From Gemmatimonadota bacterium (GTDB lineage Bacteria > Gemmatimonadota > Gemmatimonadetes > Gemmatimonadales > GWC2-71-9), in assembly GCA_016209985.1 (NCBI GenBank), contig JACQVB010000103.1, positions 1-57,426 on the forward strand: a stretch of 57,426 nt of DNA, read 5' to 3'. Shown in pieces: positions 5,573 to 50,624 of the stretch; position 1 is the first letter of the stretch; every line of letters starts with the position of its first letter. The position numbers were made by a program, and so were the translations under genes. The notes under the pieces were generated by a model. The model was not told where the DNA came from. It worked only from the letters and a program-made list of their open reading frames with translations, and ran no database searches.

Positions 5573-5602
5573 AACACGGCTTCGTCCTTAATGTTGCATG
5601 AG

Positions 5603-14778: not shown

Positions 14779-14786
14779 AGTGACTC

Positions 14787-15338
14787 CTATCTCCCTGGCG
14801 GATTGACCGATCGAAAGTCGCTCAGAAACACCTGCAGGTTTCTCGTCACCACGTTGGCCACGGCCCCGGCATTGTTTCTGGCCCCGACTCCGTACACCGC
14901 CCTCCGATATAACGCTACGTCGACGCTCCTCTGGACCAATGGTGCCAACTCACTTACAGAGATTTGCGCCCTGTCAGGAAGCCCTCTGATCATTGCGGAC
15001 AACTGCCGGGCCGGTATGGCAAAGGTGTGATACTCGAGACCGACATCGTAGACCAGCATCGTGGTCGTGTGGACCTGGAACGCGTGGACCTCGACAATCA
15101 AGTAGGAACCGCCGAAAACGGTCATAATCGAGAACCCTGCGTCGTGGAGGCGGGATTCGACCTGCCTCTGCAAGCTGTCCTCGTCGATACCGGCCGCTCG
15201 CGCCAGCGAATCGACGGTCACCACCACGTGGACGGCCTCAGGCAGGCCGGCCAGCTTAGCCGCCTGAGGAGTTTGCGCCGCAGCCAGGTGCCCTGGGCCG
15301 GAGAGCAGGCATGCTGCCAGCCACGCGGTCTTCTCCAT
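14787..15338 (-). CDS. Small secreted protein of unknown function
   Basis: A 183-residue protein with signal peptide (1-21, ending AAAQ). The rest alternates beta strands and helices (VHVVVTVDSLARAAGIDEDS, LQRQVESRLHDAGFSI, YLIVEVHAFQV). This resembles short exported proteins built on a 'parallel beta plus helix' fold, but I do not recognise a named family. It is first of the three-gene minus-strand group with the esterase 8 bp downstream. Confidence 0.55.
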   Translation of the reverse strand: MEKTAWLAACLLSGPGHLAAAQTPQAAKLAGLPEAVHVVVTVDSLARAAGIDEDSLQRQVESRLHDAGFSIMTVFGGSYLIVEVHAFQVHTTTMLVYDVGLEYHTFAIPARQLSAMIRGLPDRAQISVSELAPLVQRSVDVALYRRAVYGVGARNNAGAVANVVTRNLQVFLSDFRSVNPPGR

Positions 15339-15491
15339 GGATCACCTCACCGCAAGGGAAATCGGAAGGGTAATGAGGCAACCTACCACCTTGGACGCAT
15401 TCTCGACGAGACCAGGCAAAACGGCGACGATTATCTTCCACGCGCCGGGGCCTGTTTGAGCCGCGCCTGGCCGCGCCACTGGAGGCTACCC

Positions 15492-16163
15492 GTGTCCGTC
15501 GCTCGCCATCTCGGCATCAAGCTCGCGGAATACGACCAGCGCATCCGCACCTTCATTCCCTACTATGGTGAGATCCTCGATGCGGTCGCCGAGGCCCTCG
15601 GCCCCAGCCGCACTCGCTCGCCCAGGGTCGTCGACCTGGGAATAGGAACCGGCGCGCTCGCGGCCCGTTGTCTGGCTGCCCTTCCCCGCGGGCGCATCCT
15701 CGGGATCGATTCCGATCCGGACATGCTCGAGACGGCCCGGCGCCGTCTCGCGCGCCACGCGGGCCGGATCCAGCTGACGCGGGGCAATTTCCTCCAAACG
15801 CCGATTCCCCGCAGCGACGCGATCGTCGCGAGTTTCGCGCTCCACCACATCCGCTCAACGGCCGCGAAGGAGCGGTTCTACCGCGCCTGCCGCGCAGCAC
15901 TGGCGAAGAATGGTCTCCTCGTCACCGGCGACGTATTCCTCTCGGACGATCCCGCGCTCGTCGATCGGCACTTCCAGCGCTGGCGAGCGCACCTGGAGCG
16001 CTCCTACGGCGCGCGGAAGGCGGGGAAATTCTTGGAAATGTGGGCCCGCGAGGACCGCTACTTCCCCCTCACGGTCGAATTGCGCTTGCTGGAGCGTGCC
16101 GGCTTTCGGCCCGAGGTGGTCTGGCGGCGGGCGCCCTTCGCGGTGGTGATCGGCCGCCGCTGA
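15492..16163 (+). CDS. Class I SAM-dependent methyltransferase
   Basis: A 223-residue protein. Motif I is VVDLGIGTGALAA (46-58), the acidic motif II is GIDSDPDML (about 70-78), and IVASFALHHIRS is motif IV. The C-terminus carries the usual LLERAGFRPEVVWRR. The GTG at 15492 has GGAGG 6 nt upstream, so it is preferred over the far longer open frame. The substrate cannot be told. It stands alone between a minus-strand operon and the DUF5916 gene. Confidence 0.85.
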   Translation: MSVARHLGIKLAEYDQRIRTFIPYYGEILDAVAEALGPSRTRSPRVVDLGIGTGALAARCLAALPRGRILGIDSDPDMLETARRRLARHAGRIQLTRGNFLQTPIPRSDAIVASFALHHIRSTAAKERFYRACRAALAKNGLLVTGDVFLSDDPALVDRHFQRWRAHLERSYGARKAGKFLEMWAREDRYFPLTVELRLLERAGFRPEVVWRRAPFAVVIGRR

Positions 16164-16269
16164 TCTCGGGGTTTACAGACACACCGGTAGCAGCGAGATT
16201 GGCCCTCTCTTGCGACTCTCACCGTTGTCTTTGTCGCCTACACGGCCGAACCATCGTGCGCTGGACCGA

Positions 16270-35743: not shown

Positions 35744-36250
35744 ATGCTATTTTCCCAGCAATCGGGATGGTTCGACGGTGTCTCCAATCAGGGACCCGTC
35801 CCGAGTCGCATTGCCGGTTACACGCTCATCGAGCTGCTGATCGGGTTGTTTCTTCTTTCGCTGCTCTCGCTCATGACGTACATCCGTCTTCAGCCCGGTC
35901 TGGAGCACGGCAAGGTCAACGGCGCGGCGTCGGTTTTCGCGATCGATTTGCAGTATGCTCAGCAGCTCGCCGCGCAGCAGCGCAAGCCGGTGGTTGTCAT
36001 CATGACTGCCGCCACGGCATCATACGTGATTCGCGACCGGGCGAACGCGTCCACCATTTTTCGCACCCGGTACCTGGGAAACGATACCGACTACACACTT
36101 GATGAGTTTGATTGTACGGCTTCCTCGCTGGAGATCTTCCCGACCGGCGTCACCCGCACCACCACGACCTGCACGCTCGGGCGCAATGGCTATCGCAAGC
36201 AGGTCAAGTATACCAAGGCCGGCCAGATCCGCGTGGCCAGTGTCTCATGA
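35744..36250 (+). CDS. FimT/GspH-type minor pseudopilin
   Basis: A 168-residue type IV pilin-like protein. The prepilin motif is G25-YTLIEL with Glu at +5, followed by a hydrophobic helix (LIGLFLLSLLSLMTYIRL). The leader is 25 residues long. The soluble half (VFAIDLQYAQQLAAQQ...) resembles FimT/GspH. It opens a four-gene operon of minor pilins that would initiate pilus or pseudopilus assembly; the start may be internal, but the motif position fits a long leader. Confidence 0.8.
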   Translation: MLFSQQSGWFDGVSNQGPVPSRIAGYTLIELLIGLFLLSLLSLMTYIRLQPGLEHGKVNGAASVFAIDLQYAQQLAAQQRKPVVVIMTAATASYVIRDRANASTIFRTRYLGNDTDYTLDEFDCTASSLEIFPTGVTRTTTTCTLGRNGYRKQVKYTKAGQIRVASVS

Positions 36251-36656
36251 TCTCGCCCGCTCCGAGAGGGGCGTCGGGCTGGTGGAGATCATGCTCGCCA
36301 TCACCATCATGTCGGTGGTGCTGCTGGCCCTGGGCTCACTCATGTTTCAAGCCACCCGTGATATGAACCGCACCGGCGCGGTCGCGTATCGCAGCGCCGC
36401 CCAGCTCTCGGCCATTTCGTGGGCCCAGAGCCTGCCCTTTGACAGCCTGACATCGGCGACCTATCAATCACAGGTGGTGGGCTGCGTCACGGATACCACG
36501 GGGCAGCTCATCTACAATCGCTGCACCACGGTGCAGGTAATCTCGGGAAAGGACACCCGCATCACGCTCGTCATCACGCCCACCAATCTGACCGGGAAGT
36601 CCGACACGGTGGTGGTCGAACGCAACCGTCCACTTGTTGCCTCGCCATTCTTTTGA
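36240..36656 (+). CDS. pilV: PilV-type minor pilin
   Basis: 138 residues. GTG 36240 overlaps the FimT stop and gives the leader VSHDLARSERG before VGLVEIMLAITIMSVVLLAL, with cleavage after Gly11 and Glu at +5. The soluble part has a disulfide candidate (VGCVTDTTG..NRCTTV). PilV is a minor pilin; the next gene (PilW) starts by overlapping its stop. Confidence 0.78.
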   Translation: MSHDLARSERGVGLVEIMLAITIMSVVLLALGSLMFQATRDMNRTGAVAYRSAAQLSAISWAQSLPFDSLTSATYQSQVVGCVTDTTGQLIYNRCTTVQVISGKDTRITLVITPTNLTGKSDTVVVERNRPLVASPFF

Positions 36657-37531
36657 GCCGCCGCGGTTTCACCCTGATCGAGATCATCATCGCCATGACG
36701 CTGATGGCGGTGATCGGGATCGGCTTTACCCGCATCCTGATCAACGACTCCCGTTTTGTCAGCCGGCAGGACGCGTTGATGGGCGCGCGCCAGGGCGCCC
36801 GTGCCGCTCTCAATACGCTGGTGGCGGAATTGCGCATGATCGGCGACGGAGGTTTGGTTGCCGACAGCGCGAAAAAGATCGTGGCCCGCATTCCGTTCGC
36901 CTTCGGGGCGCTCTGCAATCAAACCGGTGGAACGGTGACCGCTTCACTGCTCCCGGTGGACTCACTGAGCTACAACACCGCGATCAATTCCGGCGGCACT
37001 ATTGGCCTCGCGTACCTGCTCAAGCCTTACAATGGGACCTATCAGTTTCCCACTCCCACCAGCCTCAGCGTCGCTAATTCGACCAACATGGCTCAGTGTA
37101 CGGTGGATAGCCTCCGGGTGTTGGGCGGTTCGCCTGCCGGCAAGCTGATCGACATGACGGTCAGCCCCGCCTCGGCGCTTGCGGCGGCGGTTTCCGGAAG
37201 TTTGTTCTACCTCTACCAGACCGTGACCTACAGTTTCGAGAATTCGACGGACCCGAGTCTCACCGGCCGCACCGCCTTGTTCCGCCAGGTGAGCGGGCTC
37301 ACAGCGGACGAGCTGGTTGCCCCCTTTGATACGTCTGCCGGATTCAAGTGCCTGACGGGGCTCGCCCTCACCCGAGCCGCCTGCCCGGTAGCCGTGTCGT
37401 CGGTGCGCGGCCTCGAGTTGCATCTGGTTTCGGCCAGCGAGAAGAACCCGCAGGGCTGGAGCAAACCCGAGACGTTCGACCTGACCGCGCGAATCGTGTT
37501 CGTGAATTGCGGGACCAAGAGCACATGCTAG
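36653..37531 (+). CDS. pilW: PilW-type minor pilin
   Basis: 292 residues. TTG start (TTGA overlap with pilV), leader MSRRG then FTLIEIIIAMTLMAVIGIGF with Glu at +5. RQGARAALNTLVAELRMIGD is characteristic of PilW. The large soluble domain is beta-rich and ends with two Cys (NCGTKSTC). It would be part of the minor-pilin priming complex. Its stop overlaps the next start (ATGCTAG). Confidence 0.8.
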   Translation: MSRRGFTLIEIIIAMTLMAVIGIGFTRILINDSRFVSRQDALMGARQGARAALNTLVAELRMIGDGGLVADSAKKIVARIPFAFGALCNQTGGTVTASLLPVDSLSYNTAINSGGTIGLAYLLKPYNGTYQFPTPTSLSVANSTNMAQCTVDSLRVLGGSPAGKLIDMTVSPASALAAAVSGSLFYLYQTVTYSFENSTDPSLTGRTALFRQVSGLTADELVAPFDTSAGFKCLTGLALTRAACPVAVSSVRGLELHLVSASEKNPQGWSKPETFDLTARIVFVNCGTKSTC

Positions 37532-38616
37532 ACGAGAGACGCCATAATCAGTCGGGCTTCGCCCTTCCCCTAGCCATCTTCTTCATGGCGATCCTGACCC
37601 TGCTCCTCACCGCGGCGTTCGCCAAGATCCAGGGCGACCGCCGGGTCGCCGACAGCAGCGGGGATGCCGTCACCGCGCTGGCGGTGGCGCAGAGCGGCCT
37701 GCATACGTACGTCGGGACGCGCACCGGCCGGCCGGCCAATGGAGACTCCGTCCGCGTGAATGTCGTGGGGGGGTACGCGGACGTTATCGCTCACGTCATG
37801 CAGAGGCCGGCCGACACCATGGCGGCCGAGTTGTTCGTGGTGCGGTCCACCGGTCATGTCATTAACCCCACGCAGGGATCTGATCCGCAGGCGTCCCGCA
37901 CCGTGGCCCGGTTCGTCCAATGGCAGGCATCGGGTGGTCTCACCACCTTTCCGGCGGCATTCACCGCTGCGAATGGGCTGAGGAACTACACCAACGGCAT
38001 CGTCACGATTACCGGGGTAGACAGTGCCTCGTGCGGGGCAACCACGATCGGGGGACTGTGGGTCTATAAGAACAACCCAAACTACGGCGGCGCCAACGGA
38101 ATCACGATGTCGGGGTCACCGGCCCACAACGACGACGACAACAATCAGTCCACCGTCGCCGATCGCATCGGTGTGACCTGGTCTACGATCGAGGCCGACG
38201 GGTTCACGCCGAATTACACTTCGCTGTCCAATACGAGTACGCTGAATACGTGGTCGACCTACGTCGTGTCGGGAACACCCACGCTGACCGCCAGCGGCTC
38301 GGGCATTCTCATCGCGAAGGACTCATTGATCATCGGCAACGTCGGGGCGCCATCGATCACGTGGTCAGGTATCATCCTGGTCGGCAAGTCGGTCCGGTTC
38401 AATGCGCTCATCACCCGAATCGAGGGGCTACTCGTCACCGGGCTGGACAGGCAATTGAGCGGCGGAGCGAGCAACACCAACAACGGGAGCGTCGGGGGCA
38501 CCGGAAAGACTCAGATCATCGAATACAACTCCTGTAATATCCGGCGGGCGCTCCAGTACGTGAGCGGGTTCGCTCCCGTCCTCAACGGCTGGGTGGACAA
38601 CTGGGGGACATACTGA
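37525..38616 (+). CDS. PilX-like minor pilin with large surface domain
   Basis: 363 residues. Leader MLDERRHNQSG then FALPLAIFFMAILTLLLTAA. The +5 Glu is absent (Leu), as in PilX-type minor pilins. QGDRRVADSSGDAVTALAVAQ is a PilX-like helix, and the 250-residue C-terminal part is Ser/Thr/Asn-rich and beta-like, so possibly an adhesive tip. No PilY1 or major pilin gene is seen downstream. A heptamer palindrome begins 1 bp after the stop. Confidence 0.75.
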   Translation: MLDERRHNQSGFALPLAIFFMAILTLLLTAAFAKIQGDRRVADSSGDAVTALAVAQSGLHTYVGTRTGRPANGDSVRVNVVGGYADVIAHVMQRPADTMAAELFVVRSTGHVINPTQGSDPQASRTVARFVQWQASGGLTTFPAAFTAANGLRNYTNGIVTITGVDSASCGATTIGGLWVYKNNPNYGGANGITMSGSPAHNDDDNNQSTVADRIGVTWSTIEADGFTPNYTSLSNTSTLNTWSTYVVSGTPTLTASGSGILIAKDSLIIGNVGAPSITWSGIILVGKSVRFNALITRIEGLLVTGLDRQLSGGASNTNNGSVGGTGKTQIIEYNSCNIRRALQYVSGFAPVLNGWVDNWGTY

Positions 38617-39485: not shown

Positions 39486-39842
39486 ATGAATCGCGCCACT
39501 CTCCGCCGCCTCGGCGGCCTGTTCCTCTTTCTGGCCTGGGTCCAGGTGGCCACGGCGAATGCCATGCCGTGCGCCGTCTCCTGCCTGCTGGAAAAGGACC
39601 TCGCGCATCATCACCATGAGGGTTTGAACGAAGACCACGCCATTGGCCACCACATGTCGGGTTCGGCCATTTCGGCGCCGGAATTCTGCGGCACCCCACA
39701 GCTGATGGTAGTGTCGTTCGTGCCGCCCGATTTCCCGCTGCCCCCGATGGTGGAAGTCGCCGTCCTGCACCTGGCGCCGGCTGCACCGGTATCCGTCGTT
39801 TCCGCAGTCCTGGAGTTCGCGACCCCCCCTCCGCGAGCCTAG
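39486..39842 (+). CDS. Small secreted His-rich protein, putative metal binding
   Basis: 118 residues. Signal peptide 1-25, then CAVSC (Cys29/Cys33) and a His cluster LAHHHHEGLNED...HHMSG near 40-58. The Cys-His arrangement suggests binding of copper or zinc. It is the first gene of the metal-handling region and precedes the TonB receptor by 89 bp. Not a known named family; role inferred from composition and neighbours. Confidence 0.6.
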   Translation: MNRATLRRLGGLFLFLAWVQVATANAMPCAVSCLLEKDLAHHHHEGLNEDHAIGHHMSGSAISAPEFCGTPQLMVVSFVPPDFPLPPMVEVAVLHLAPAAPVSVVSAVLEFATPPPRA

Positions 39843-39930
39843 CTACACCCTGAAAAATCCGAGCAGGAACGCACCGCCAGTCCGGCGGCTGCGGGTGCTT
39901 GCTCCAAAAGAGTGTAGCCGGGAGTAAACC

Positions 39931-42270
39931 GTGAAGCAGACGATGTTCATCGTGGCGGTGCTGCTGTTCCGGGCGCCGGCCGCGGCGCTGGCCCAGGAAC
40001 CCACCGGATGGATCGTGGGTGTGGTGTCTCAGGCATCGAGCGACACCGCTCACCCTCACAACGAGCCCATTCCCGGCGCGACGGTCATGTTGCTCGAAAC
40101 GCCATCCACCACCATCTCCAACGATCAGGGCGAGTTCGCGCTGGGACCGTTGCCGCCGAGGGTTTACGTGCTCGAAGCCCGGCGGATCGGGTATCGGCCG
40201 GTGCATGAGCAGGTTCGGGTGACCGCCGGCCAGCGTACCAAGATCGACCTTCATCTCACGGCCGTCCCCATCACCGTCGATGCGGTCGTCATCGAGGCAC
40301 TCCAGGATCAGAGCCACCGGACCTATGACTTGTCCGAGCTCCAGAAGGTGCCGCTGGTGGGCACCGCCAACGTCACGGCGGTAACGCTGCGTCAGATCAA
40401 GCAGATACACGCCCGCGATCCCTGGGAGCTGGTGCGGCAATCGACCGGCCTGGAAGTGCACGAGCAGGGCCAGGGACCGGGGTTCGCCAGCGACGCGGTG
40501 ATTCGCGGCTTCACCTCCGACCATTCAGCCGACGTCGCGCTGGTGGTGGACGGTGTACCCATCAACGAGCCGGTGAACGGTCACGGCGAGGGCTACGCCG
40601 ACTGGAACCTGATTTTCCCCGGTGCGCTCGCCGACGTCCAGGTCATCAAGGGCCCGATCAGCCCGCTGTTCGGCAACTTCGCTTCCGGCGGCGCGGTGAA
40701 CGTGACCACTCAGGCCAGCGCGCAACAGACCAGTTTCCAGCTCGAGGGCGGCAGCCACACGTTCGGCGCCGCGACCCTGACCACCGGCTTCGAAAAGGGT
40801 GCCTGGGGCGGCTTCCTCGGCGGGCATGGGGTGCACAGCGACGGCTGGCGCGACAACAGTGGCTACGGGACTGCGCAGGTGATCGGCCGGATCAACCGGC
40901 GCATGACGCCGGAATTCCTGCTCGACGCGGGCCTGCAGTATTACGGGACCAACTGGGACTCGCCCGGCTACCTGTCGCTGGCACAGTTCAACGCCGGCGA
41001 TCTCACCTCGGCCGCCGACCCCACCGACGGCGGCAACAAGCAACGGTTCCAGGGCCGCGCGTCGGCGGTGCTGATCAAGCCCACGCTGCAATGGAACAGC
41101 ACCGTGTGGGGATACGACAGCCACTGGCACCTGTTCCTGACGATTCCCGAGCTGGGGGGGGCCGGAGAGGGAACCGGCTCACAGACCGAGGAGCTGGATG
41201 ACCGCAGGGCATTCGGCGGCAAGTCCATTGCCAAGTGGACCCGTGGCTCGCTGGAACTGACCGCCGGGGCGGAAGTCCAGCGGCACCAGGCAGCATACGA
41301 CATCTGGTCCACCATTGCGCGCCGCCGCGACATCACGATCAACCGCTTGGACGCGACGCAGGTGACGCTGGCAGGTCTCGGCGGAGCCGCGAAAACCTTC
41401 GGCCGCTTGCTCCGACTCGAGGCGGCGTTGCGAGCCGACCGGCTTCAACCGAAGACGCTGGATCGCGTCACCCGCCTGTACCTGCCGGCTACGAGTCACA
41501 CGGTGCTCAGCCCGAAGTTCGGCGCCGTGCTCTACGCGCGGGGCAATCTGCAGTTCTACGGCTCCGCGGCGCGGGGATTTCGCAGCGCGCCCGCGACCAT
41601 CGGCGAGCCCACCAGGGCGCCGGTCACGGTGTGGGCGTTCGAAGGGGGCGCGCGCTTCTCCACCAAGCGGGTGGATGGATCGGCGGCCTTCTTCCGGCTC
41701 GATACGCAGAACGAGCTGGTGTTCAATCCGGTCACCCTGGAAACCGAAGACACGGGCCACAGCATCCGGGAAGGCATCGAGTGGGAGGTCAAGCTGCACC
41801 CGGTGCCGCAATTCGAGTTCGAGACCCATTTCACCTGGAACACCAAGGGACTGTTTTTCGTCGCCGACACCACGGCGCAACCCGCCGCTTCGATCGACCC
41901 GCTGTTCAGCATGACCGACGCGAGCTCCACCACCGTGATCATGCACGATGAAGGCGCCGGCAGATTCGTCGAAGGGGTAGCGGACTATTCCGGGCGCGTC
42001 GGGGTCACGGTGCGCCCGACGCTCGCGACCTGGATCAACACCTGGGCGACGGTTATGGGCCCCTACGTCCCACTGGGTGAGCCCGACGCCAAAACCACCG
42101 CATATGTGATCGGCAACATCCAGACTGGCGCCCGACTCACCGATCGCATCGAGCTGGCGTTCGGAGTGGACAACGTACTCAACAAACGGGCGGCGGAGCT
42201 GCGGGCCTCGGGTGCTGTCAACCCGGTGGCACCGCGCACGGTGCACCTCAACGTGAACACCCGCTGGTAA
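39931..42270 (+). CDS. TonB-dependent receptor with carboxypeptidase-regulatory domain
   Basis: 779 residues. Signal peptide 1-22 (ALAQ), a carboxypeptidase-regulatory-like domain at about 25-115 (IPGATVMLLETPSTTISNDQ, GEFALGPLPPRVYVLEARRI), a plug domain at about 140-255 (SDAVIRGF, PISPLFGNFASGGAVNVTTQ) and a barrel to the end (YGSAARGFRSAP, DNVLNKRAAELR). It imports a substrate using proton-motive force. The His-rich neighbour and copper proteins downstream suggest a metal or a metal chelate. A hairpin (39855-39893) lies in the leader. GTG start. Confidence 0.85.
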   Translation: MKQTMFIVAVLLFRAPAAALAQEPTGWIVGVVSQASSDTAHPHNEPIPGATVMLLETPSTTISNDQGEFALGPLPPRVYVLEARRIGYRPVHEQVRVTAGQRTKIDLHLTAVPITVDAVVIEALQDQSHRTYDLSELQKVPLVGTANVTAVTLRQIKQIHARDPWELVRQSTGLEVHEQGQGPGFASDAVIRGFTSDHSADVALVVDGVPINEPVNGHGEGYADWNLIFPGALADVQVIKGPISPLFGNFASGGAVNVTTQASAQQTSFQLEGGSHTFGAATLTTGFEKGAWGGFLGGHGVHSDGWRDNSGYGTAQVIGRINRRMTPEFLLDAGLQYYGTNWDSPGYLSLAQFNAGDLTSAADPTDGGNKQRFQGRASAVLIKPTLQWNSTVWGYDSHWHLFLTIPELGGAGEGTGSQTEELDDRRAFGGKSIAKWTRGSLELTAGAEVQRHQAAYDIWSTIARRRDITINRLDATQVTLAGLGGAAKTFGRLLRLEAALRADRLQPKTLDRVTRLYLPATSHTVLSPKFGAVLYARGNLQFYGSAARGFRSAPATIGEPTRAPVTVWAFEGGARFSTKRVDGSAAFFRLDTQNELVFNPVTLETEDTGHSIREGIEWEVKLHPVPQFEFETHFTWNTKGLFFVADTTAQPAASIDPLFSMTDASSTTVIMHDEGAGRFVEGVADYSGRVGVTVRPTLATWINTWATVMGPYVPLGEPDAKTTAYVIGNIQTGARLTDRIELAFGVDNVLNKRAAELRASGAVNPVAPRTVHLNVNTRW

Positions 42271-42374
42271 TGCGCTCGCTCACCAAAAAGGAGTGTCGCT
42301 TCAGCGACCGACGGCCGAGACGCGAGTTCATTCGCGGGTCAGAATGCCAAACTCTTTCGAGGAGATTCGAACCC

Positions 42375-43130
42375 ATGTTCCGCAAACTCTCGTCGCTCGC
42401 GCTGGCTGCGGCTGCCCTGGTTCTTGCCGCGTGCTCGGACAATACCGGCGTGGATCTCAGTGCTCCGTTGACGGTGGATTTCCGCAGCTCCGCCGGCCAC
42501 ATCCACATCTGGGAGACGGCCATCACCTACACCGCGTTGATCACCGCGAACAATCAGCTGGTGAACGATTTCGACACGTTGCGAGTGGAGTACGCGGCGG
42601 CGGGCGGTAACAACTGGACGCCTTTCGGTTCGCTCACGCTGCAAGCAGGCGGGTCATATTCCGGCACTACCTACTTCCCGGTGGCCGGGACGTACAGCAT
42701 CCGGCTCGCCGGCCATCGTCCCGGCCAGTCCGGCATCCAGGAGGTCTACCGGCCCGCCTCGACCATCGCACCCGTACGGCAGCACTACGACGTGGCCGGC
42801 ACCACCTGGCGGGTGGAGTTCGAGTCGGTGCCCGGGCTCAACAAACCGGGCGACACTCCGACCGTGAACTTCTACGTCATGCAAGCCACGGCGGATGCCG
42901 GCGGCACCCGCGCTCCGATTACCGGGCTCAACGGTGTCACGGTCAACTGCATCAGCCCAGCCAACGCCACCGTCACCAGGTCGGCCACCGAGAATGCGAC
43001 GACGCCGGGTCTCTACCAGGCGACATGCGCGGTGAGCAGCAACGGCTGGTGGAAGGCCACCGTAAACCTGCCCGGCCCGAGCGGGTCGGTGTCGGCAACG
43101 GCGAGCTACGGAGTGGGAACGATCGGCTGA
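42375..43130 (+). CDS. Lipoprotein with His-containing beta domain
   Basis: 251 residues. Lipobox LVLAAC places the lipidated Cys at 20. The mature part begins SSAGHIHIWETAITYTALIT, a short His-x-His-x-Trp-Glu motif suitable for metal binding, and continues as immunoglobulin-like beta strands (LQAGGSYSGTTYFPVAGTYS, GLNGVTVNCISPANATVTRS). Two Cys may form a disulfide. It is 104 bp downstream of the TonB receptor gene on the same strand. Function inferred only. Confidence 0.6.
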   Translation: MFRKLSSLALAAAALVLAACSDNTGVDLSAPLTVDFRSSAGHIHIWETAITYTALITANNQLVNDFDTLRVEYAAAGGNNWTPFGSLTLQAGGSYSGTTYFPVAGTYSIRLAGHRPGQSGIQEVYRPASTIAPVRQHYDVAGTTWRVEFESVPGLNKPGDTPTVNFYVMQATADAGGTRAPITGLNGVTVNCISPANATVTRSATENATTPGLYQATCAVSSNGWWKATVNLPGPSGSVSATASYGVGTIG

Positions 43131-43160
43131 GGGTTGGCAATTCTCGATTCGAAAGAACGC

Positions 43161-43197
43161 GTGCTCGCGGTTTCGCGAGCACCAAGATAGGTTTTTT
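43161..43197 (+). terminator. Hairpin after the lipoprotein gene
   Basis: GTGCTCGCG (43161-43169) and CGCGAGCAC (43174-43182) make a perfect 9-bp stem with loop GTTT. A six-T run follows 9 nt later (43192-43197), which is farther than in a typical terminator. Confidence 0.6.
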
Positions 43198-43237
43198 ACT
43201 GCCAGGGACGGCCTTCACCGAATGTTCCGGAGGAACA

Positions 43238-43873
43238 GTGCTCAAGAATCTCGCAGTGATGATCGCGCTCGCCCTGGCGCTGCCCGCGGCCGCCGCCGCG
43301 CAGCACGAAGACCACGACATGTCCGGCCCCGCTCCTCAGGCCCCCACGATCCTGGCGCCCGACGTACAGATCGCGGGCGCGGTTCTCGCGGCGCCGGAAG
43401 TGCTCCGCGCCGGGGCGGCGGTGCTGGGATACGCACCCGACGGCAAGCTGGTCGAGCTCAGGAAAGGAACGAATGAGCTGATCTGCCTGGCCGACGATCC
43501 CAAGGCCGAGCAGTTTCACGTCGCTTGTTACTACCGCGGACTCGAGCCGCTCATGGCGCGTGGCCGCGAGCTGTTGGCGCAGGGCGTGACCGGCCCCAGG
43601 CGTGACAGCATTCGCAACGCGGACATCGTGGCAGGGCGGGTGAAGATGCCGGTGGCGGGCGCGGTGTACACGCTGAGCGCTCGGAAGGCGTGCTTTGATA
43701 CCGCCACCAAGACGCTCTGTGATCGGGTGAGGCCGGTCCATTCGGTGTATGTCGCATTCGCCTCCACCGAAAACACCGGCCTGCTGGACCACGCCACGGA
43801 TGCTTACACGCCGTACCTGATGGACGCCGGAACCCCCAAGGCCCACATCATGTTCGGCGAGCATGGACACTAA
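43238..43873 (+). CDS. Secreted His-rich protein of unknown function
   Basis: 211 residues. GTG 43238 has GGAGG 4 nt upstream. Signal peptide to about 21, then QHEDHDMSG at the mature N-terminus and HIMFGEHGH at the C-terminus: His/Met clusters at both ends, fitting copper binding. Four Cys (LICLADD, HVACYYRG, RKACFD, TLCDRV) may form disulfides. The middle (KTLCDRVRPVHSVYVAFAST) looks globular. The neighbours are CusF and TonB genes. Confidence 0.6.
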   Translation: MLKNLAVMIALALALPAAAAAQHEDHDMSGPAPQAPTILAPDVQIAGAVLAAPEVLRAGAAVLGYAPDGKLVELRKGTNELICLADDPKAEQFHVACYYRGLEPLMARGRELLAQGVTGPRRDSIRNADIVAGRVKMPVAGAVYTLSARKACFDTATKTLCDRVRPVHSVYVAFASTENTGLLDHATDAYTPYLMDAGTPKAHIMFGEHGH

Positions 43874-43972
43874 GTTCGCGGCTGAAACGTTAAGCGCGAT
43901 GTTGGGTACTAGAACCGCGTTGCGGACCGCGGGTGACCATCTAAGCCTCTCTATTTCCAGGAGCTACGTCGC

Positions 43973-44332
43973 ATGAAGACGAAGTCGTTGTTTCTCGCCA
44001 TGCTGATCTCGGCCGCGGCGGTGCTACCGGCCTTCGCGCAGGCCGCGAAAAGTGGGGAGACCAAGCAGGGCGCCGAAAAGAAGTACCACATCGACGGAAC
44101 AGTGAAATCGATCTCGCCTGCCTCGCATTCCGCGGTGATCGACGCCAAGGCGATCCCGGGATTCATGGCCGCGATGGCCATGCCCTACACGTTCAAGGAT
44201 TCGGCTACGCTGGCCAAGCTGAAACCCGGCGATCACATCACCGGTGATCTGGTCGTGGTCGGGAGCAAGACCTTGGTGGACAACGTGGTGATCGAGAAGC
44301 CGGCGGCGAAGAAGGACAACCCTAGCCCCTAA
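43973..44332 (+). CDS. CusF-like periplasmic copper-binding protein
   Basis: 119 residues. Signal peptide 1-23 (FAQA). The CusF_Ec/PF11604 pattern follows: HIDGTVKSISPASHSAVIDA, then IPGFMAAMAMPYTFKD, where Met65/68/70 and a nearby His mark the copper site, and LKPGDHITGDLVV closing the OB-type barrel. CusF-like proteins bind Cu(I)/Ag(I) in the periplasm. Here it is followed by the small gene at 44367 and the second TonB receptor. Confidence 0.85.
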   Translation: MKTKSLFLAMLISAAAVLPAFAQAAKSGETKQGAEKKYHIDGTVKSISPASHSAVIDAKAIPGFMAAMAMPYTFKDSATLAKLKPGDHITGDLVVVGSKTLVDNVVIEKPAAKKDNPSP

Positions 44333-44366
44333 CACCTGATACCCAGGACCCTTCGAGAGACAATTC

Positions 44367-44699
44367 ATGTCTGGCGTCCGTCGCGCCTTCGCGCTTGCAC
44401 TCGCCCTGTCCTTTGCCGGACGGGCGACGGCCGCCGGAATCGACGCGCTGCTGTACCACAACGACTCCGGGCCGTCCCCCGCCTCGGCACACTGGGACCC
44501 TCCCGGCGGTTGCCAGAGTCACGCCGAGCGTTGTGCCCTCCGCGCCGCCCCGGTCGGTCCCCGGTTCGTGACGCCCTCGTTTCGGACCATCACCGCGGCC
44601 GATCAGATCTTCCAGCGAATCCATCTCCGGGCAGAGACTCAACACCGTTCCCTCGTCAGATCACCTCTCCAGGCTCGCGCCCCGCCCTTCGTCCTCTAG
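44367..44699 (+). CDS. Small exported Cys/His protein
   Basis: 110 residues. Signal peptide 1-22 (RATAAG), then CQSHAERCALRAAP (Cys49, Cys56, His52), a possible metal site. The remainder is Pro/Arg-rich. It sits 84 bp before a ZnuD-like receptor, as the other His-rich small gene precedes the first receptor, so the two receptor genes appear to have the same layout. Low similarity to anything I know. Confidence 0.45.
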   Translation: MSGVRRAFALALALSFAGRATAAGIDALLYHNDSGPSPASAHWDPPGGCQSHAERCALRAAPVGPRFVTPSFRTITAADQIFQRIHLRAETQHRSLVRSPLQARAPPFVL

Positions 44700-44783
44700 C
44701 TGACCAAGAAGCCGCCGTTTCCTGCTGACCGCTCCGCTACTGCGGCCAGCTCGATTATCACAGCCAGGGGCGGGAGCACCTAC

Positions 44784-47075
44784 ATGCGTGTCCAGCACAT
44801 CACGCTACTCGTTTTTCTTGCAGTCATTACGGAAGTCTCCATGGTGCACGCGAGCAACCTGGCTTTCACGCCGGGTGGCCCGCCACCGGCACCGATCCTG
44901 CGCGGCACGGTCACGGACTCGGCCGGATCGCCGATCGCTGACGTGCAGGTCATCGTCACCGCCCTCAATCGGGTCGCCACCACCGACGACGAAGGCCATT
45001 TTGTGTTCCAGGGACTCCCGCTCGGCTCGTATCATCTGAGAGCCCAGCGAATCGGGTACGCACCCGCTCACGCAGACGTGACCTTGGGCGCCTCCGACAC
45101 GGAGGTCACCGTCTCCATCGTGATGCACGCCTCACCCCTCCAGCTCAATCCGATTCAGGTCACCGCAACGCCAACCGGCACCGACCCGCGAGACGTGCCG
45201 CAATCGGTTGTTTCCCTCTCCGGTGAGCAGCTCGCTCGAGCGGCCGGAGCCTCCCTGGCACAGACGCTCGCCGGCGAGCCGGGGATCGCGGTCCGCTTCA
45301 ACGGCCCGGCCGCTTCTGCGCCGGTGATCCGTGGCCTCCAGGGAGAAAGGGTGCTAGTGCTGCAGGACGGCGATCGGGCCGGCGACCTCTCCTCCACCGC
45401 ACCCGATCACTCGGTGTCGGTCGATCCCCTCACCGCCACCCGGGTAGAGGTGGTTCGCGGTCCCGCGTCTCTCTTGTACGGGAACCAGGCTTTGGGCGGA
45501 GTCGTGAACGTCATTTCGAACGACATTCCATCCGAACACCCGACCCACGTCGATGGCTACCTGGCCAGCCAGGCGGAATCCGTGAACCCCGGGGTGAGCG
45601 GAGCGGGCGGATTGACGGTCCCGCTGGGGGGTAGCCTGGCCCTGGTCGCGCGCGGGGGTGGACGACATTCCGATGAGATGCGGATGGGCGGTGGAGGGCA
45701 GCTGCTCAATTCTTTCTTCAGGAATTACTACGGCGTCGGCGGACTCGGCTTTGCAGGGACGACCGCCAACGGTGGCGTGATCTACCGCTACTACCATCAG
45801 AACTACGGTCTTCCGTCAGCAGGGGGCGAGAGTGCACGAATCGAAGGGCAGCGCAAAGAAGTGCAGGGCCGCAGTGATTTCACCATCAACAGCGCCTTGC
45901 TCACCTCGCTGCGGGTGAGTGGCACCGCCCAGTGGTACGGGCACGCTGAGATCAACCAGGAAACCGCCGACACCAACACCAGCTTCAGCCTCAAGACTCA
46001 GACCGTGGATCTTCTGGGCCACATCACGACCGGCTCTTCGACCGGAGCGATCGGGGCCTCGGGCATTTTCCGGCAGTACGCCGCGACTGGAGAGGAGGCG
46101 CTCACGCCCGCCGCAAACAGCAATGGGGCCGGCGCGTTCCTTTACGAGGAAATCCCCCTCGGCGCTCGCGAGGACCCGGACGCGGCAGTCACCAAGCTCC
46201 AGTTCGGCGGGCGCTTTGACTCCTACCGGATCGCATCACAGGCCGGGGATCCGAAATTCGGCCTCCCGACCTCCATAACGTTCAATACGTTCTCCGGCTC
46301 GATGGGGCTGATGGTGCCGGCCGGCTCACGTTTCAGCCTGAGCGGCAGCGTGGCGCGGTCGTTTCGCGCCCCCTCCGTGGAGGAGTTGTTCTCCAACGCG
46401 CGCCATGAAGCGCTGGGAACATATGATGTCGGCAACCCGGCCCTGAAGGCGGAGATCAACCAGGGAGCGGAACTCATTGTTCGCTTGCATTCCGGCCGCG
46501 CAAACGGGCAGCTCGCCGGGTATTACAACTCGATCCAGAACTACATCACGCCAAATATCGTCAAGGACACGGTCCTTCCCGGCAACCTGGGGTCCGACAC
46601 CCTCCCGCTCAACCGCGTCACCCAGGCGGACGCCATGCTGCGGGGGTTCGAAGGCAGCCTGGAGGTCCAGGTGGCGTCCCACGTCGTGTTGGGCGCGATG
46701 GGGGATTTGGTATGGGGCGAGCTGGCGGATTCGCAGGAGCCGCTCCCATATATGCCACCGGCGCGCATCGGCGGCTCGGCCCGCTTCGACGACGGCCGGA
46801 CGTCGTTCGGGGTGGACTATCGCCACGGGTTCGCGCAGAACCGCGTACCACCAGCGGTATCGCCGGACGATCCGTCTGGAATCGCAACCGGCGCCTACGA
46901 CCTCGTGAACCTGAGCATCGGGTGGGTCGTGAATCTCGGCGGTCGGACGAATTCGCTTACCTTGCGGCTGGACAATGCCTTCGACGAGCGATACCGGGAT
47001 GCCACCAGTCGCATCAAGACGTTCGCGTTTAGCGCAGGACGAAACCTCGCGCTGGTGTACAAGATCCTGCTATGA
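44784..47075 (+). CDS. TonB-dependent receptor (ZnuD-like)
   Basis: 763 residues. Signal peptide 1-24, carboxypeptidase-regulatory-like domain (TVTDSAGSPIADVQVIVTAL, FVFQGLPLGSYHLRAQRIGY) at about 40-115, plug (PVIRGLQGERVLVLQDGDRA, RVEVVRGPASLLYGNQALGG) and barrel ending DNAFDERYRDATS...LVYKILL. SFRAPSVEELFSNARHEALG and TYDVGNP resemble the ZnuD metal receptor pattern, so it probably takes up zinc, copper or a metal complex. The neighbouring CusF-like and His-rich genes agree. Confidence 0.82.
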   Translation: MRVQHITLLVFLAVITEVSMVHASNLAFTPGGPPPAPILRGTVTDSAGSPIADVQVIVTALNRVATTDDEGHFVFQGLPLGSYHLRAQRIGYAPAHADVTLGASDTEVTVSIVMHASPLQLNPIQVTATPTGTDPRDVPQSVVSLSGEQLARAAGASLAQTLAGEPGIAVRFNGPAASAPVIRGLQGERVLVLQDGDRAGDLSSTAPDHSVSVDPLTATRVEVVRGPASLLYGNQALGGVVNVISNDIPSEHPTHVDGYLASQAESVNPGVSGAGGLTVPLGGSLALVARGGGRHSDEMRMGGGGQLLNSFFRNYYGVGGLGFAGTTANGGVIYRYYHQNYGLPSAGGESARIEGQRKEVQGRSDFTINSALLTSLRVSGTAQWYGHAEINQETADTNTSFSLKTQTVDLLGHITTGSSTGAIGASGIFRQYAATGEEALTPAANSNGAGAFLYEEIPLGAREDPDAAVTKLQFGGRFDSYRIASQAGDPKFGLPTSITFNTFSGSMGLMVPAGSRFSLSGSVARSFRAPSVEELFSNARHEALGTYDVGNPALKAEINQGAELIVRLHSGRANGQLAGYYNSIQNYITPNIVKDTVLPGNLGSDTLPLNRVTQADAMLRGFEGSLEVQVASHVVLGAMGDLVWGELADSQEPLPYMPPARIGGSARFDDGRTSFGVDYRHGFAQNRVPPAVSPDDPSGIATGAYDLVNLSIGWVVNLGGRTNSLTLRLDNAFDERYRDATSRIKTFAFSAGRNLALVYKILL

Positions 47076-47114
47076 TAGGCGCTGCACGCTTGCCGGTGAC
47101 CGGGAGATCGGTTC

Positions 47115-48350
47115 TTGACCCTGACTAGCTACGTGAAGGCAGCGCGACTGCTCGCGTTCCTGGTGCTCGCCGCGGCGTGCAAGGACACCACGGAGCCGCC
47201 GGTAGTCGTTCCACCCCACGACAATCACATCATCGATTCGACGATGATGGTTCCGGCCCCGACGCTGGCGGCTAGCGTGGCGATCCCACCGCAGTACGGC
47301 ATCCACGACACCTTCATTCGTGACGGCATCGCCCTGGTTTGCGCCTGGAACAGCGGACTCATGCTCTACGACGTGGGGAACGGAATCAAGGGCGGCAGCC
47401 CTTCGAGCCCGGTCCTGATCTCCAGCCTCGTCACTAACGCCAACGGGGTCGCCGGCGGCGCCGCGGTGCACAACGCGTGGTGGTTTCACAATCCGGTGAC
47501 CAACGAGAAGCGCTACGCCTTCGTCGGCCAGGAAGGCCCCGCCACCATTCCCAGCACCTCGAGCGGAGATATCCACGTGGTGGACGTGTCCGACCTGGCC
47601 CACCCGCAGGAGGTGGCGTTTTATCACATGAACACGTCGCCGGCCGCCGGCACGCACAACTTTTGGATGGACGAGCCCGCGCAAATCCTCTACGCGGCCT
47701 ATTACAACGGCGGCGTCGTGGCGCTGGACGTGTCGGGCACCCTGAGCGGCGACCTCTCCTCCCGCGAGCTGGCGCGCTACCAGCCTTCGCCCACGTCGAA
47801 CTTCGTCTGGGGCGTGCAGCTTTCCGGCGGATCGCTGTATGTCATCGACCTGTTGAACGGTTTCTATCAGCTCAAGTACGCGAATCGGGCCTTCACCACC
47901 GCGTCCGGCGGCGGCAATGTCCCCGAGCGGTACAGCTCGGACCTCTGGGTCACCGGCCAGTACGCCTATACCGGCACCTGGGGAGCGACCGGCAGGGCCG
48001 GCGTGTCCGGCAACACGCTGAAGACCTGGCGACTCAGCGCGAGCGGCGCGCCGGCGCTGGCGGATTCGCTGAGGTTCATCGGGGTCGGCACCATCAGTGA
48101 CGTCAAGGGCACCGATGATGGAAGATTGCTGATCGCGAGCGCCGAATCGGGGCCGAACGGCGGAGTGTACGTCTTCAAGCTCACCGACCCCACCTTCCCC
48201 ACGCTCGTGGCCAAAGTCCTGGTACAGGGCGGGGTGCACACCGTGAAGCTCGCGGACATCGGAGGCAAGCGATACGTTTTTGCCGCCAAGAATCCGGGCT
48301 CGGCTGGGCCCGCATTGCTGATCTATGACGTAGAGTCCCTGGCGCAGTAA
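47115..48350 (+). CDS. LVIVD-repeat beta-propeller lipoprotein
   Basis: 411 residues. Start TTG 47115 with GGGAG upstream, or GTG 47133. Lipobox LAAAC places Cys at 22. Blades such as DGIALVCAWNSGLMLYDVGN, GDIHVVDVSDLAHPQEVAFY and VYVFKLTDPTFPTLV match LVIVD repeats. It is the second such protein in the window. It follows the ZnuD-like receptor by 39 bp and could be its surface partner. Confidence 0.75.
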   Translation: MTLTSYVKAARLLAFLVLAAACKDTTEPPVVVPPHDNHIIDSTMMVPAPTLAASVAIPPQYGIHDTFIRDGIALVCAWNSGLMLYDVGNGIKGGSPSSPVLISSLVTNANGVAGGAAVHNAWWFHNPVTNEKRYAFVGQEGPATIPSTSSGDIHVVDVSDLAHPQEVAFYHMNTSPAAGTHNFWMDEPAQILYAAYYNGGVVALDVSGTLSGDLSSRELARYQPSPTSNFVWGVQLSGGSLYVIDLLNGFYQLKYANRAFTTASGGGNVPERYSSDLWVTGQYAYTGTWGATGRAGVSGNTLKTWRLSASGAPALADSLRFIGVGTISDVKGTDDGRLLIASAESGPNGGVYVFKLTDPTFPTLVAKVLVQGGVHTVKLADIGGKRYVFAAKNPGSAGPALLIYDVESLAQ

Positions 48351-48351
48351 G

Positions 48352-48376
48352 AGCGTGGGTTGGCCAACCCAACGCT
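48352..48376. terminator. Hairpin between convergent genes
   Basis: AGCGTGGGTTGG and CCAACCCAACGCT pair with one bulged base round a central GGCC, between stops at 48350 and 48382. No clear T-run; it may act on both strands. Confidence 0.65.
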
Positions 48377-48381
48377 ACCGT

Positions 48382-48927
48382 CTACCGCGGTCCGGCGTCG
48401 TGCTTCGTGGAGCCGTGGTCCATCCCTCCGGCATGATGATCCTGCCGCTGGAACGCCATGAACTGCTCGATCGCCTGGAGCGCTTCCGGATCGTGGGTGA
48501 CGATCCGTACCTCGCCGCCCCGCGGCAGTTCATGGTAGGTGTACGTGATCGCGCCGCGCTTCGCGGCCATCACCGAGGCGCCGGGGACCGGCTGCATGTG
48601 GACGAACGCGGGGGTCGTGAAATCGCCGGCCTTGAACGACTTGGTGATTCGCTGTAAATGCCGGCGGATTTGCGCGACGCCGGCGGGGTCGTCCACGTCA
48701 CGTTGCAGTTCGATCCGCCCACCGTCAGGGAGCACATCGAACTGGTGTCTGGACGTGTACTGGTCCACGCCCATGGCCGTCTTTCCACGAGCCTGCATCG
48801 CCGCGAACGCGCTGTCGGACTGGCCCCGGGCCTGACCGGATTGGCCGGCTGCCTGGGCACTCGCCAGGGTTGGAAGGAGCGACGCCGCTAGTCCCAAGAG
48901 GAGAATCGCCGAACGGTGCTGCCACAT
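48382..48927 (-). CDS. Secreted protein with His-rich tail
   Basis: 181 residues. Signal peptide 1-25 (ASAQA). The central DGGRIELQRDVDDPAGVAQI and HELPRGGEVRIVTHDPEALQ are conserved-looking, and the tail HHAGGMDHGSTKH is rich in His and Met. Family members are sometimes named after unrelated enzymes, but no catalytic motif is visible. The tail fits copper or nickel binding. It is minus-strand, convergent with the LVIVD gene. Confidence 0.6.
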   Translation of the reverse strand: MWQHRSAILLLGLAASLLPTLASAQAAGQSGQARGQSDSAFAAMQARGKTAMGVDQYTSRHQFDVLPDGGRIELQRDVDDPAGVAQIRRHLQRITKSFKAGDFTTPAFVHMQPVPGASVMAAKRGAITYTYHELPRGGEVRIVTHDPEALQAIEQFMAFQRQDHHAGGMDHGSTKHDAGPR

Positions 48928-49084
48928 ATCGCCTCCTGCTGTTGTACATCCAGGCTTGCTTTCGTGGTGGCCGCTGCGGCAGCTTGGCCGAAGGTGCGGC
49001 CGACGGGCGCTCCAATATTACGCGGCTTCCGCAGGCCGCGAAGGAACCAAAGTCACCTCCCGACTCTGCGCGTAGTCCGTTCGT

Positions 49085-49753
49085 ATGAGTGATCCGGCCA
49101 ACCTCGACACCCTACCGCTTTTCGCCAGTCTGTCGGCGGAGACCCGCCGGCAGCTCGTAGCGCGTGCGGTCGAGCGCACGTTCCCGGTAGGCGCGGTGCT
49201 GTTCCATGCAGGGACCGAGCCCACGGGCATCTACGTCGTTCTCTCGGGCTGCGTTCGGATCGTGCGGTCGCGCGATGGGCGGCGCTACGTGGTGCATACA
49301 GAAGGCCCGGGCGGAACCCTCGCTGAGCTTCCCTTCTTCGAGGGCGGCAGGCTTCCGGCGACAGCCGTGGCGGCCGAGCCCTCTCGCTGCCTCATCCTCC
49401 CCCGCGAAGCTTTACGTGCCGCCATGCGCGACGACCCCGCGGTTGCGTGGCTCTTTCTGCGGCGCCTCTCCAGTCGCGTACGCGAGCTCGTCGAGCGCCT
49501 CGACCGCGCCTCGACCCAAGGGATTCCCGCCCGGCTTGCGGCATTCCTCCTGACCCGGGAGGAGTCAGCCCAGGGCGGGCCTTTCACGCTCGGGCTGACG
49601 CAAGCCGAACTCGCCGAGGAGCTGGGGACGGTACGCGAGGTCGTCGTGCGAGGACTCGGGCGTCTGCGGAACTCCGGCATCATGGGTTCGGCTGGCCGTG
49701 GGCGGTATGTGATCCGAGACGCCACAGCGCTGCGCGCCCTCGCGGAGCGCTGA
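49085..49753 (+). CDS. Crp/Fnr-family transcriptional regulator
   Basis: 222 residues. Residues about 10-125 form a cyclic-nucleotide-binding-like beta-roll (VLFHAGTEPTGIYVVLSGCV, GPGGTLAELPFFEGGRLPAT). Residues about 150-215 contain a winged helix with LTQAELAEELGTVREVVVRG, whose recognition helix reads VREVVVRGLGRL. No Cys cluster for a [4Fe-4S] is present, so a different signal is likely. It is divergent from the His-tail gene and upstream of the CusF-cytochrome gene, and may control this metal locus. Confidence 0.85.
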   Translation: MSDPANLDTLPLFASLSAETRRQLVARAVERTFPVGAVLFHAGTEPTGIYVVLSGCVRIVRSRDGRRYVVHTEGPGGTLAELPFFEGGRLPATAVAAEPSRCLILPREALRAAMRDDPAVAWLFLRRLSSRVRELVERLDRASTQGIPARLAAFLLTREESAQGGPFTLGLTQAELAEELGTVREVVVRGLGRLRNSGIMGSAGRGRYVIRDATALRALAER

Positions 49754-49910
49754 GGCCGCCGGTGTCGCACCCCCACCACGCATCCTCAGGAACGCCATGA
49801 ACCCATGGGGTAGGACACCACGAGGCATCCACGGTGCAAGCAGCACCAGGACATGAAGAAGGATTCCACTCAACGATAACGCTCGACCTCGAGCGGACGG
49901 AGTCAGCGAC

Positions 49911-50624
49911 ATGAACGCAGCACGAACGGCGCTCACCGCGGTGACCCTCATGGTGGCCGTGGCCGCGACACGGGTCCTGGCACAGGATCCCTTGGACTCG
50001 ACGAAGAATCACGTCTCGGACACGATCAACCGGAGTGTCCAGCACTGGCACTTCGATGGTGACGTGTCGACCGTCAATCCCGGCAACCACAGTCTCACCA
50101 TCAATGCGGACAGTATCCCGCAGGCCTACGGTGGTAAGACCACTCTACCCTACACCGCCCGGGATTCGAGCGAGCTCGCGAAATTCCATGTTGGCGATCG
50201 CGTGAACGGCGATCTGGTGGTTAGAAACAACCGGTCGTTTGTCGAGAACCTCAAGCTCGGCAGTACGCCCAGACCGGGCACTGCCATGAAGAAAGGCCCA
50301 GACGTTGGGATGCAGAAGAGCTCAGGCGGTGGAATGAAGAAGGAAACGATGGCGGCGCGGGGCGTCGACGGAAAGGCGGCGTACGACAAGAATTGCAAGT
50401 CTTGTCACGGGGTAAAGGGAATGCCTCCCGCGGCCTTGTCCAAACAGCTCAAAATCCCGAAGTGGGATGCCGCCTATCTCGCGGCGCGGTCGGATGACTC
50501 CCTGGTCCGCGTCATGAAGCAGGGTGGAAAGGTGATGAAGGGCTTCGAGGGAAAAATGACACCGCAGCAAATGGAGGCAGTGGCCAAGTACATTCGAGAA
50601 ATGGTGGGCAAGCCGGCCTCCTAG
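49911..50624 (+). CDS. CusF-like domain fused to cytochrome c
   Basis: 237 residues. Signal peptide 1-24. Residues 45-115 (HFDGDVSTVNPGNHSLTINA, then IPQAYGGKTTLPYTARD and FHVGDRVNGDLVV) align with the CusF-like protein at 43973, but its Met-rich IPGFMAAMAM is replaced by IPQAYGGKTTL, so the usual copper ligands are lost. A Lys/Met-rich linker (120-150) leads to a class I cytochrome c with Cys162, Cys165 and His166 (CKSCH) and a candidate axial Met in GKMTPQQM near 216. It should be a periplasmic electron carrier. Confidence 0.82.
   Translation: MNAARTALTAVTLMVAVAATRVLAQDPLDSTKNHVSDTINRSVQHWHFDGDVSTVNPGNHSLTINADSIPQAYGGKTTLPYTARDSSELAKFHVGDRVNGDLVVRNNRSFVENLKLGSTPRPGTAMKKGPDVGMQKSSGGGMKKETMAARGVDGKAAYDKNCKSCHGVKGMPPAALSKQLKIPKWDAAYLAARSDDSLVRVMKQGGKVMKGFEGKMTPQQMEAVAKYIREMVGKPAS

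Follow-up and report, generated by a model that had tools for sequence, protein, structure and literature searches.

Two genes for TonB-dependent receptors in the genome of a soil-type Gemmatimonadota bacterium each stand behind a small gene for a Cys/His-rich protein which, to judge from its motifs, is probably not a metal carrier but a metal-responsive leader peptide, encoded by an upstream open reading frame (uORF) of the CruR/CutF/CopL kind. The genes belong to a locus of eleven (A to K, positions 39486 to 50624) in the window, by which we mean the whole analysed stretch of 57,426 nucleotides (nt); the window is one contig (C51; GenBank JACQVB010000103.1) of a 4.6-Mb genome in 289 contigs. 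We interpret the locus as a metal-scavenging operon, most likely for copper destined for haem-copper respiration, in which each receptor is under the control of its own nascent-chain sensor, and we assign this interpretation a probability of roughly 0.78. The evidence consists throughout of sequence comparison and sequence-derived prediction, from which we read the motifs, their spacing, the association of leaders with receptors across the phylum, the complementarity to Shine-Dalgarno (SD) sequences and the links to copper genes. The features on which the argument turns are:

A, 39486-39842, + strand: leader peptide of 118 amino acids with a signal-peptide-like N terminus, CxxxC, HHHH, Cys68 and a C-terminal TPPPRA; predicted copper-responsive uORF of B.
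Pro-Pro-Pro codons of A (CCC CCT CCG), 39825-39833, + strand: putative arrest site and anti-Shine-Dalgarno.
Stem-loop joining the end of A with the B ribosome-binding site (ccggGAG, 39918-39924), 39838-39924, + strand: predicted fold, z -2.1.
B, 39931-42270, + strand: TonB-dependent receptor 1, GTG start, with a carboxypeptidase-regulatory-like N-terminal domain (Pfam).
F, 44367-44699, + strand: CruR/DUF2946-like leader peptide of 110 amino acids with AHWD, Cys49, His52, Cys56 and RAPP at residues 104-107.
RAPP codons of F, 44676-44687, + strand: Ala-Pro-Pro codons predicted to pair with the G ribosome-binding site.
C>G bubble at the end of F, 44608-44725, + strand: candidate Rho-utilisation region, among the lowest 0.1% of 78-nt windows in the locus.
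G ribosome-binding region (AGGGGCGGGAGC), 44766-44777, + strand: predicted to be sequestered by 44679-44689.
G, 44784-47075, + strand: TonB-dependent receptor 2 of the ZnuD/haem-receptor type (Pfam, NCBIfam and PDB comparison).

An open reading frame (ORF) check found every gene named in the initial annotation open, at the coordinates listed here and below. Genes A to H form a single run on the + strand with short gaps, and the A-B and F-G pairs are arranged head-to-tail, with gaps of 88 and 84 nt, and not in the mirrored layout that the initial annotation had described. F, directly before G, may sit within a longer transcript rather than lead it; a promoter scan found nothing.

The C terminus of F reads LQARAPPFVL. 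When RAPP stands close to the C terminus of a small exported protein it arrests the ribosome, and this arrest, that of CruR included, has been shown in vitro (PMC10951233, PMC12992588). In Bordetella CruR the copper response of a TonB receptor depends on a CXXC located 45 residues ahead of RAPP (PMC9426467). Because F ends in this proven arrest motif, we surveyed the upstream regions of the homologues of both receptors across the phylum for ORFs of this type. A RAPP- or RGPP-ended upstream ORF was found for 28 of the 33 close homologues of G and for 19 of the 20 distant ones (47/53 in total), and a RAPP-ended one for just 1 of 186 other large genes of the same loci, which served as the control. 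The pairing of small gene and receptor noticed in the initial annotation is thus far above chance. The distant G homologues (L115-L134) had been considered as a control set and were dropped because nearly all of them also have RAPP leaders; the 186 unrelated genes were used instead.

In the leaders of close G homologues the spacing between CxxC and RAPP is 43-46 residues, and in F the RAPP motif lies 47 residues past Cys56. The Cys residues of F, at 54 and 47 residues before RAPP, occupy the places of the first two Cys in the family triad, and Cys49, His52 and AHWD are retained. F scores 61 bits (5.6e-16) against the family model A2, F itself being among the A2 sequences, and 13 of 24 G-class leaders match Pfam DUF2946 (PF11162; best 5.3e-6). 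We also considered F as a degenerate, dead leader and rejected this reading because of the retention of RAPP, the spacing, AHWD and two Cys. The leaders of most of the distant G homologues (L115-L134) have C-x-H-x-H-x2-C in place of CxxC, mostly at spacings of 58 and 49 residues to RAPP/RGPP, and judging from this pattern they are possibly a zinc-sensing subclass.

The leaders of B homologues form a second class, which is His-rich, with CC..C...C and a C-terminal [LR]P[FP]xx[GA]PP. Such a PP-ended ORF is present in 24 of 31 B-family loci, A and the leader of its own-genome paralogous locus L006 being counted; one more, in the own-genome locus L070, is clear on inspection and was missed by the script. 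A subgroup ending in PPPRA, PPPPRA or PPPPRI comprises A, the leaders of L006 and L070, and a leader in a sister species (L202, described below). The last Cys of the B-class site lies 39-47 residues ahead of the Pro motif (in A, PPPRA stands 45 residues past a Cys, 44 in the script's register). As a protein, A is conserved in three other loci at 34-43% identity, the highest value being that of the sister-species leader. Of 18 B-type leaders, 5 match the NCBIfam CopL model (best 2.8e-5), with the single score inspected lying below the cut-off. A also falls under the published rule for CutF-like proteins (fewer than 150 amino acids, a signal peptide, PP within the last 15 residues and a same-strand gene at most 1000 nt downstream; PMC9973294), with its 118 amino acids, its TPPPRA end, B at 88 nt downstream and a signal peptide judged by eye. 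Shared ancestry of the two leader classes found no support in a profile comparison, which aligned just 15 signal-peptide columns. Near the B homologue of locus L075, a second Cys/His-rich leader-like ORF (4750-5115) lies about 1.5 kb upstream of the receptor.

The ends of the leaders are complementary to the ribosome-binding regions of the receptors that follow. The Ala-Pro-Pro codons of F (44679-44687) are predicted to pair with the G ribosome-binding region in a duplex of -24.5 kcal/mol, and the end of A with that of B in a stem that begins at the stop codon; the complete F-G stretch folds no more strongly than its shuffles (z -1.1). In all four A-type leaders the predicted fold holds the leader end against the ribosome-binding-site region, with sequences that differ. 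Across the B class, pairing of the tail with the SD sequence of its own receptor beats that of windows from the leader interior (z 5.8 at a mean rank of 0.15) and of swapped tails (z 5.3), and in the G class the corresponding comparison with swapped tails gives z 3.75; these z values overstate the certainty because the loci are related and the receptor starts were picked by a simple score. The B-class tail also beats its reversed self in 21 of 23 cases, with mean pairing of 0.59 against 0.22 in shuffles. As proline codons are C-rich, the arrest motif may by itself account for some of this complementarity. The idea that SD sequestration holds throughout the G class was rejected, the effect being weak against interior windows, although the window's own F-G pair is strong. 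The deepest C>G bubble of the locus lies at the end of F, as in the Rho-utilisation region of CruR. A ribosome stopped at the leader end would therefore free the SD sequence and, in the case of F, hide the Rho site.

Genomic context points to copper. In a sister species of the same genus, L202 (G001:C5:94000-113500) occupies the same chromosomal place, with a flanking pseudopilin 60% and an acyl-CoA dehydrogenase 80% identical. The series there opens with a leader of the A type, 43% identical and with the same end; behind it come an unrelated TonB receptor, CopC and CopD fused in one protein, a YcnI (DUF1775) protein and a homologue of H. In the stretch that holds leader and receptor (3538-6285), the receptor has no detectable similarity to B: the receptor was swapped and the leader conserved. 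Because a conserved leader here precedes an unrelated receptor, the sequences suggest that the imported substance is marked by the sensor rather than by the transporter. In the window, type IV pilus or secretion pseudopilin-like genes (35744-38616) adjoin the locus, and the first of these also flanks L202.

In L006 a leader is followed by a B paralogue (49%), a YtkA lipoprotein (35% identical to C), another receptor, a NapH-like protein, CuA-COX2, COX1 and SCO1, and in L094 an MbnH gene (479 bits) stands upstream of a B homologue. YtkA/CtaK helps to assemble CuA in Bacillus (PMC13344008), and haem-copper oxidases obtain copper by way of CrtA (PMC12914433). The CopC-CopD and YcnI genes of L202, the CuA oxidase set of L006 and MbnH therefore favour copper for the A-B unit. 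From these associations copper is most likely the cargo; zinc for G and nickel for B are possible. The proposal of the initial annotation that the locus is a surface metal acquisition system linked to respiration is supported in this respect, with copper the probable metal, while the role it gave to the small Cys/His proteins is probably wrong, as they appear to be regulatory sensors. The L006 genes COX2/COX1/SCO1 (13319-16619) stand together with the NapH/NosR-like 4Fe-4S protein and the second TonB receptor, and a stand-alone short COX1-like protein is encoded at 1551-2006; the set looks like an unusual haem-copper oxidase or nitric oxide (NO) reductase operon.

We infer arrest itself, the identity of the metal and the chaperone roles, and the following course of events is proposed. 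The leader would be translated first and its export would begin. With metal scarce, the ribosome would arrest at the proline motif near the C terminus (RAPP for F and PPPRA for A) and cover the leader end, which could then not pair with the ribosome-binding site of the receptor, and the receptor would be made; in F, the stalled ribosome would also shield the C-rich Rho-entry region. Metal binding to the Cys/His site some 45 residues upstream, by then emerging from the ribosome, would relieve the arrest. The leader would be completed and degraded, the pairing would re-form or Rho would terminate transcription, and the receptor would be off. The YtkA lipoprotein, together with the CusF-like protein, might receive the imported metal on its way to periplasmic cuproenzymes. 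The direction of regulation is presumed by analogy with CruR; CutF has been reported to regulate in the opposite direction (PMC9973294). The other genes of the locus are:

C, 42375-43130, + strand: lipoprotein with YtkA-like domain(s) and an HIHIWE motif; putative periplasmic copper chaperone (PF13115, 2.4e-11).
D, 43238-43873, + strand: exported protein with His/Met ends, no Pfam family.
E, 43973-44332, + strand: CusF-like copper-binding protein, Met motif retained (PF11604, 1.4e-9).
H, 47115-48350, + strand: LVIVD-repeat lipoprotein (Pfam).
I, 48382-48927, - strand: exported His/Met-tailed protein; operon association uncertain.
J, 49085-49753, + strand: Crp/Fnr-family regulator (Pfam); operon association uncertain.
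K, 49911-50624, + strand: CusF-like domain fused to a c-type cytochrome (NCBIfam); operon association uncertain.

The gene content read by the initial annotation holds: Pfam confirmed two TonB receptors, each behind a small gene, and the YtkA (HIHIWE), CusF-like, LVIVD and Crp/Fnr proteins, NCBIfam confirmed the CusF-cytochrome fusion, and no CopA, CusA or multicopper oxidase is present among the eleven genes. I is the only gene on the - strand, and it is uncertain whether I, J and K are members of the operon; all three need not belong. The YtkA-like domain of C scores above the PF13115 cut-off. Among 61 genomes C has only two copies, both in its own genome, the second standing behind the B paralogue in L006; other matches are weak. 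D and I, like the small genes A and F, match no Pfam family. Conserved features of the D family, for which Pfam has no entry, are CLA...CY...PFMARGR...PGTPKAHIM, and a D-homologous domain makes up the C-terminal half of the L202 DUF1775 (YcnI) protein (8383-9603). Read from the sequence, the CusF-like part of K has lost its Met ligands (QAYGGKTTLPY against GFMAAMAMPY in E). H has no meaningful match in PDB. D occurs in 38, H in 39 and I in 26 of the 61 genomes, and outside the genus they are unlinked to leaders or receptors in the loci examined. The initial annotation had named conservation in related genomes as a check on the cluster: the eleven-gene set is scattered in relatives, while leader-receptor pairs are kept, and the conserved unit is leader plus receptor, often without any further shared gene.

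Several observations weigh against the interpretation of the locus as a copper-scavenging operon under leader control. F has CxxR and not CxxC, the third family Cys being replaced by Arg (C56-A-L-R59), and CruR needs that Cys pair for copper sensing; Arg59 may be a Cys-to-Arg sequencing error. F alone matches no Pfam or NCBIfam family, PF11162 included, and A matches neither the DUF2946 nor the NCBIfam CopL model. Tails of the B type are without the Arg found in RAPP, and the proline tail of CutF alone gave no strong stalling (PMC9973294). In the G class, SD pairing is weak as a general rule (mean rank 0.40, z 1.7 against interior windows). With regard to the metal, G has three of the four ZnuD zinc ligands, no counterpart of E340 having been found. 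The B paralogue of L070 (G000:C205:25000-44000; 64% identical), whose leader tail is PPPPRI, is convergent to hydrogenase-maturation genes (HypC by Pfam, PF01455; hypF, hypD, hypE and HypX by eye), and a 27% B homologue in Methylobacterium jeotgali (L150) has neighbours read by eye as nikR, urease alpha and DUF4198-like.

The rival that survives best retains regulation by leaders and assigns two metals, copper (or nickel) to B and zinc to G, each leader sensing its own metal; we regard this as a possible, distinctly less probable account. Zinc is a serious alternative for G because D208 and H209 in the plug and H541 in the barrel correspond to ZnuD D99, H100 and H499 and are invariant in 50 of 50 homologues. 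ZnuD is also the closest match of G in PDB (4.6e-34), the leaders of most of the distant G homologues carry C-x-H-x-H-C without CxxC, F is without the second Cys of that pair, and published context work indicates that CutF-like leaders are not all copper-specific (PMC9973294). However, most close G homologues have CxxC leaders of the CruR copper type, and G has the CusF-like gene on one side and H on the other, in a run that also includes YtkA. Nor does a ZnuD-like site settle the cargo: ZnuD was first taken for a haem receptor (PMC4557270). Comparison with named receptor families gave scores below the cut-offs, with G reaching 168 bits against NCBIfam ZnuD (cut-off 950) and B and G reaching 18 and 44 bits against TIGR01778 (OprC/NosA copper receptor; cut-off 472). 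CrtA (PDB 9RVQ) is matched by G in the plug only (7e-6), and B has no match to it at 0.001. B homologues at 35-40% identity occur in records named Gemmatimonadetes or Gemmatimonadaceae.

A reading of B as a nickel receptor, in a locus that serves nickel and copper together, is unlikely. The hyp genes beside the L070 paralogue are in keeping with such a system, and so are the neighbours of the Methylobacterium homologue, which suggest a nickel branch of the receptor family. Against this, the other own-genome paralogue shares an operon with YtkA, CuA-COX2 and SCO1, in the sister species CopC-CopD and YcnI stand behind a leader of this type, and the B leaders are rich in Cys, in contrast to the His-only leaders of HupE/UreJ (nickel/cobalt) contexts (PMC9973294).

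We consider it improbable that the small proteins are true exported metal carriers, periplasmic or at the surface, that feed the receptors, even though their N termini resemble signal peptides and their mature parts are rich in His and Cys. The tightest constraint falls on the Pro motif at the C terminus and on how far it lies from the Cys site, neither of which a carrier needs, and the nucleotide end of the leader matches the SD sequence of the receptor. Moreover, proteomes avoid RAPP-like motifs other than close to the ends of small uORF-encoded proteins (PMC12992588), and the related CutF and CruR proteins went undetected in cells (PMC9973294, PMC9426467). Chance short ORFs in GC-rich DNA, with Pro ends arising from C-rich sequence, can hardly account for the data: ORFs with a PP end are frequent before genes of every sort in these loci (35/186), but RAPP-ended ones are not, the Cys-to-motif spacing is conserved, family statistics exclude chance for F, and A is conserved as a protein.

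Bacterial copper acquisition is poorly known, and descriptions of metal sensing by a protein still on the ribosome date from no earlier than 2022-2023 and come mainly from Proteobacteria. If the interpretation of A and F as leader peptides is true, two 'hypothetical proteins' are switches, and the same switch stands before nearly every receptor of this family throughout the phylum. Pfam largely misses these leaders, as the curated DUF2946 model has matches in only 15 of 121 genomes, against the 47 of 53 receptors reached by the motif search. As a set, the leaders would make up a natural series of sensors that obey one spacing rule and come with three kinds of metal site and several of arrest tail, in which arrest relief and metal specificity become testable. 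We tentatively suggest a phylum-wide sensor repertoire of one geometry (about 45 residues from metal site to Pro arrest), with CxxC, C-x-H-x-H-C or His-rich CC..C...C sites and RAPP/RGPP, LPFxxGPP or PPPRA tails, in which the two units of the window would sense two metals and LPFxxGPP/PPPRA would be an arrest class distinct from RAPP.

The mechanism itself is already known from systems of the CruR/CutF type. What look new are the presence of two leader classes in one operon, the use of leaders for almost all of these receptors in Gemmatimonadota, and the exchange of the receptor behind a conserved leader; metal-responsive leaders have apparently not been described for this phylum in the literature on CruR/CutF-type leaders. 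Among the known systems, ZnuD of Neisseria (PDB 4RDR; PMC4557270) has plug and barrel parts in common with G, as well as three of its four zinc ligands, but G has an extra N-terminal carboxypeptidase-regulatory-like domain and a preceding leader peptide. The CuA-assembly lipoprotein YtkA/CtaK of Bacillus subtilis (PMC13344008) resembles C in its YtkA-like domain, and a C homologue stands in a CuA oxidase operon; C differs in its Gram-negative host and its extra HIHIWE region.

The RAPP/RGPP arrest peptides found before TonB genes (PMC12992588) are of the same kind as F and its family. That survey reports TonB-related uORFs across Gram-negative bacteria, Gemmatimonadota not being named in its main text, and the B-type leaders, which lack RAPP/RGPP, would escape its search. 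CutF of the CutF-CutO-CutG system of Rhodobacter capsulatus and CopL (PMC9973294) are the closest counterparts of A, which falls under the CutF-like rule and has CxxxC and a predicted stem-loop over the downstream SD sequence. Unlike in the CutF system, the gene after A encodes a receptor, not an oxidase, the tail is PPPRA or LPFxxGPP, and the expected direction is opposite (import, not detoxification). The nearest counterpart of F is CruR in the CruR-bfrG(crtA)-bp2921 operon of Bordetella pertussis (DUF2946 uORF; PMC9426467, PMC12914433), with which it shares an exported-type leader, a Cys site, some 45 residues, RAPP, a C>G bubble at the leader end and a position directly before a TonB-dependent receptor gene. 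The differences are that F has CxxR in place of CxxC, the gap is 84 nt instead of 162 nt, the receptor is of the ZnuD and not the CrtA type, and there is no PepSY_TM gene; moreover the window, from another phylum, has two leader-receptor pairs of two leader classes in a single run.

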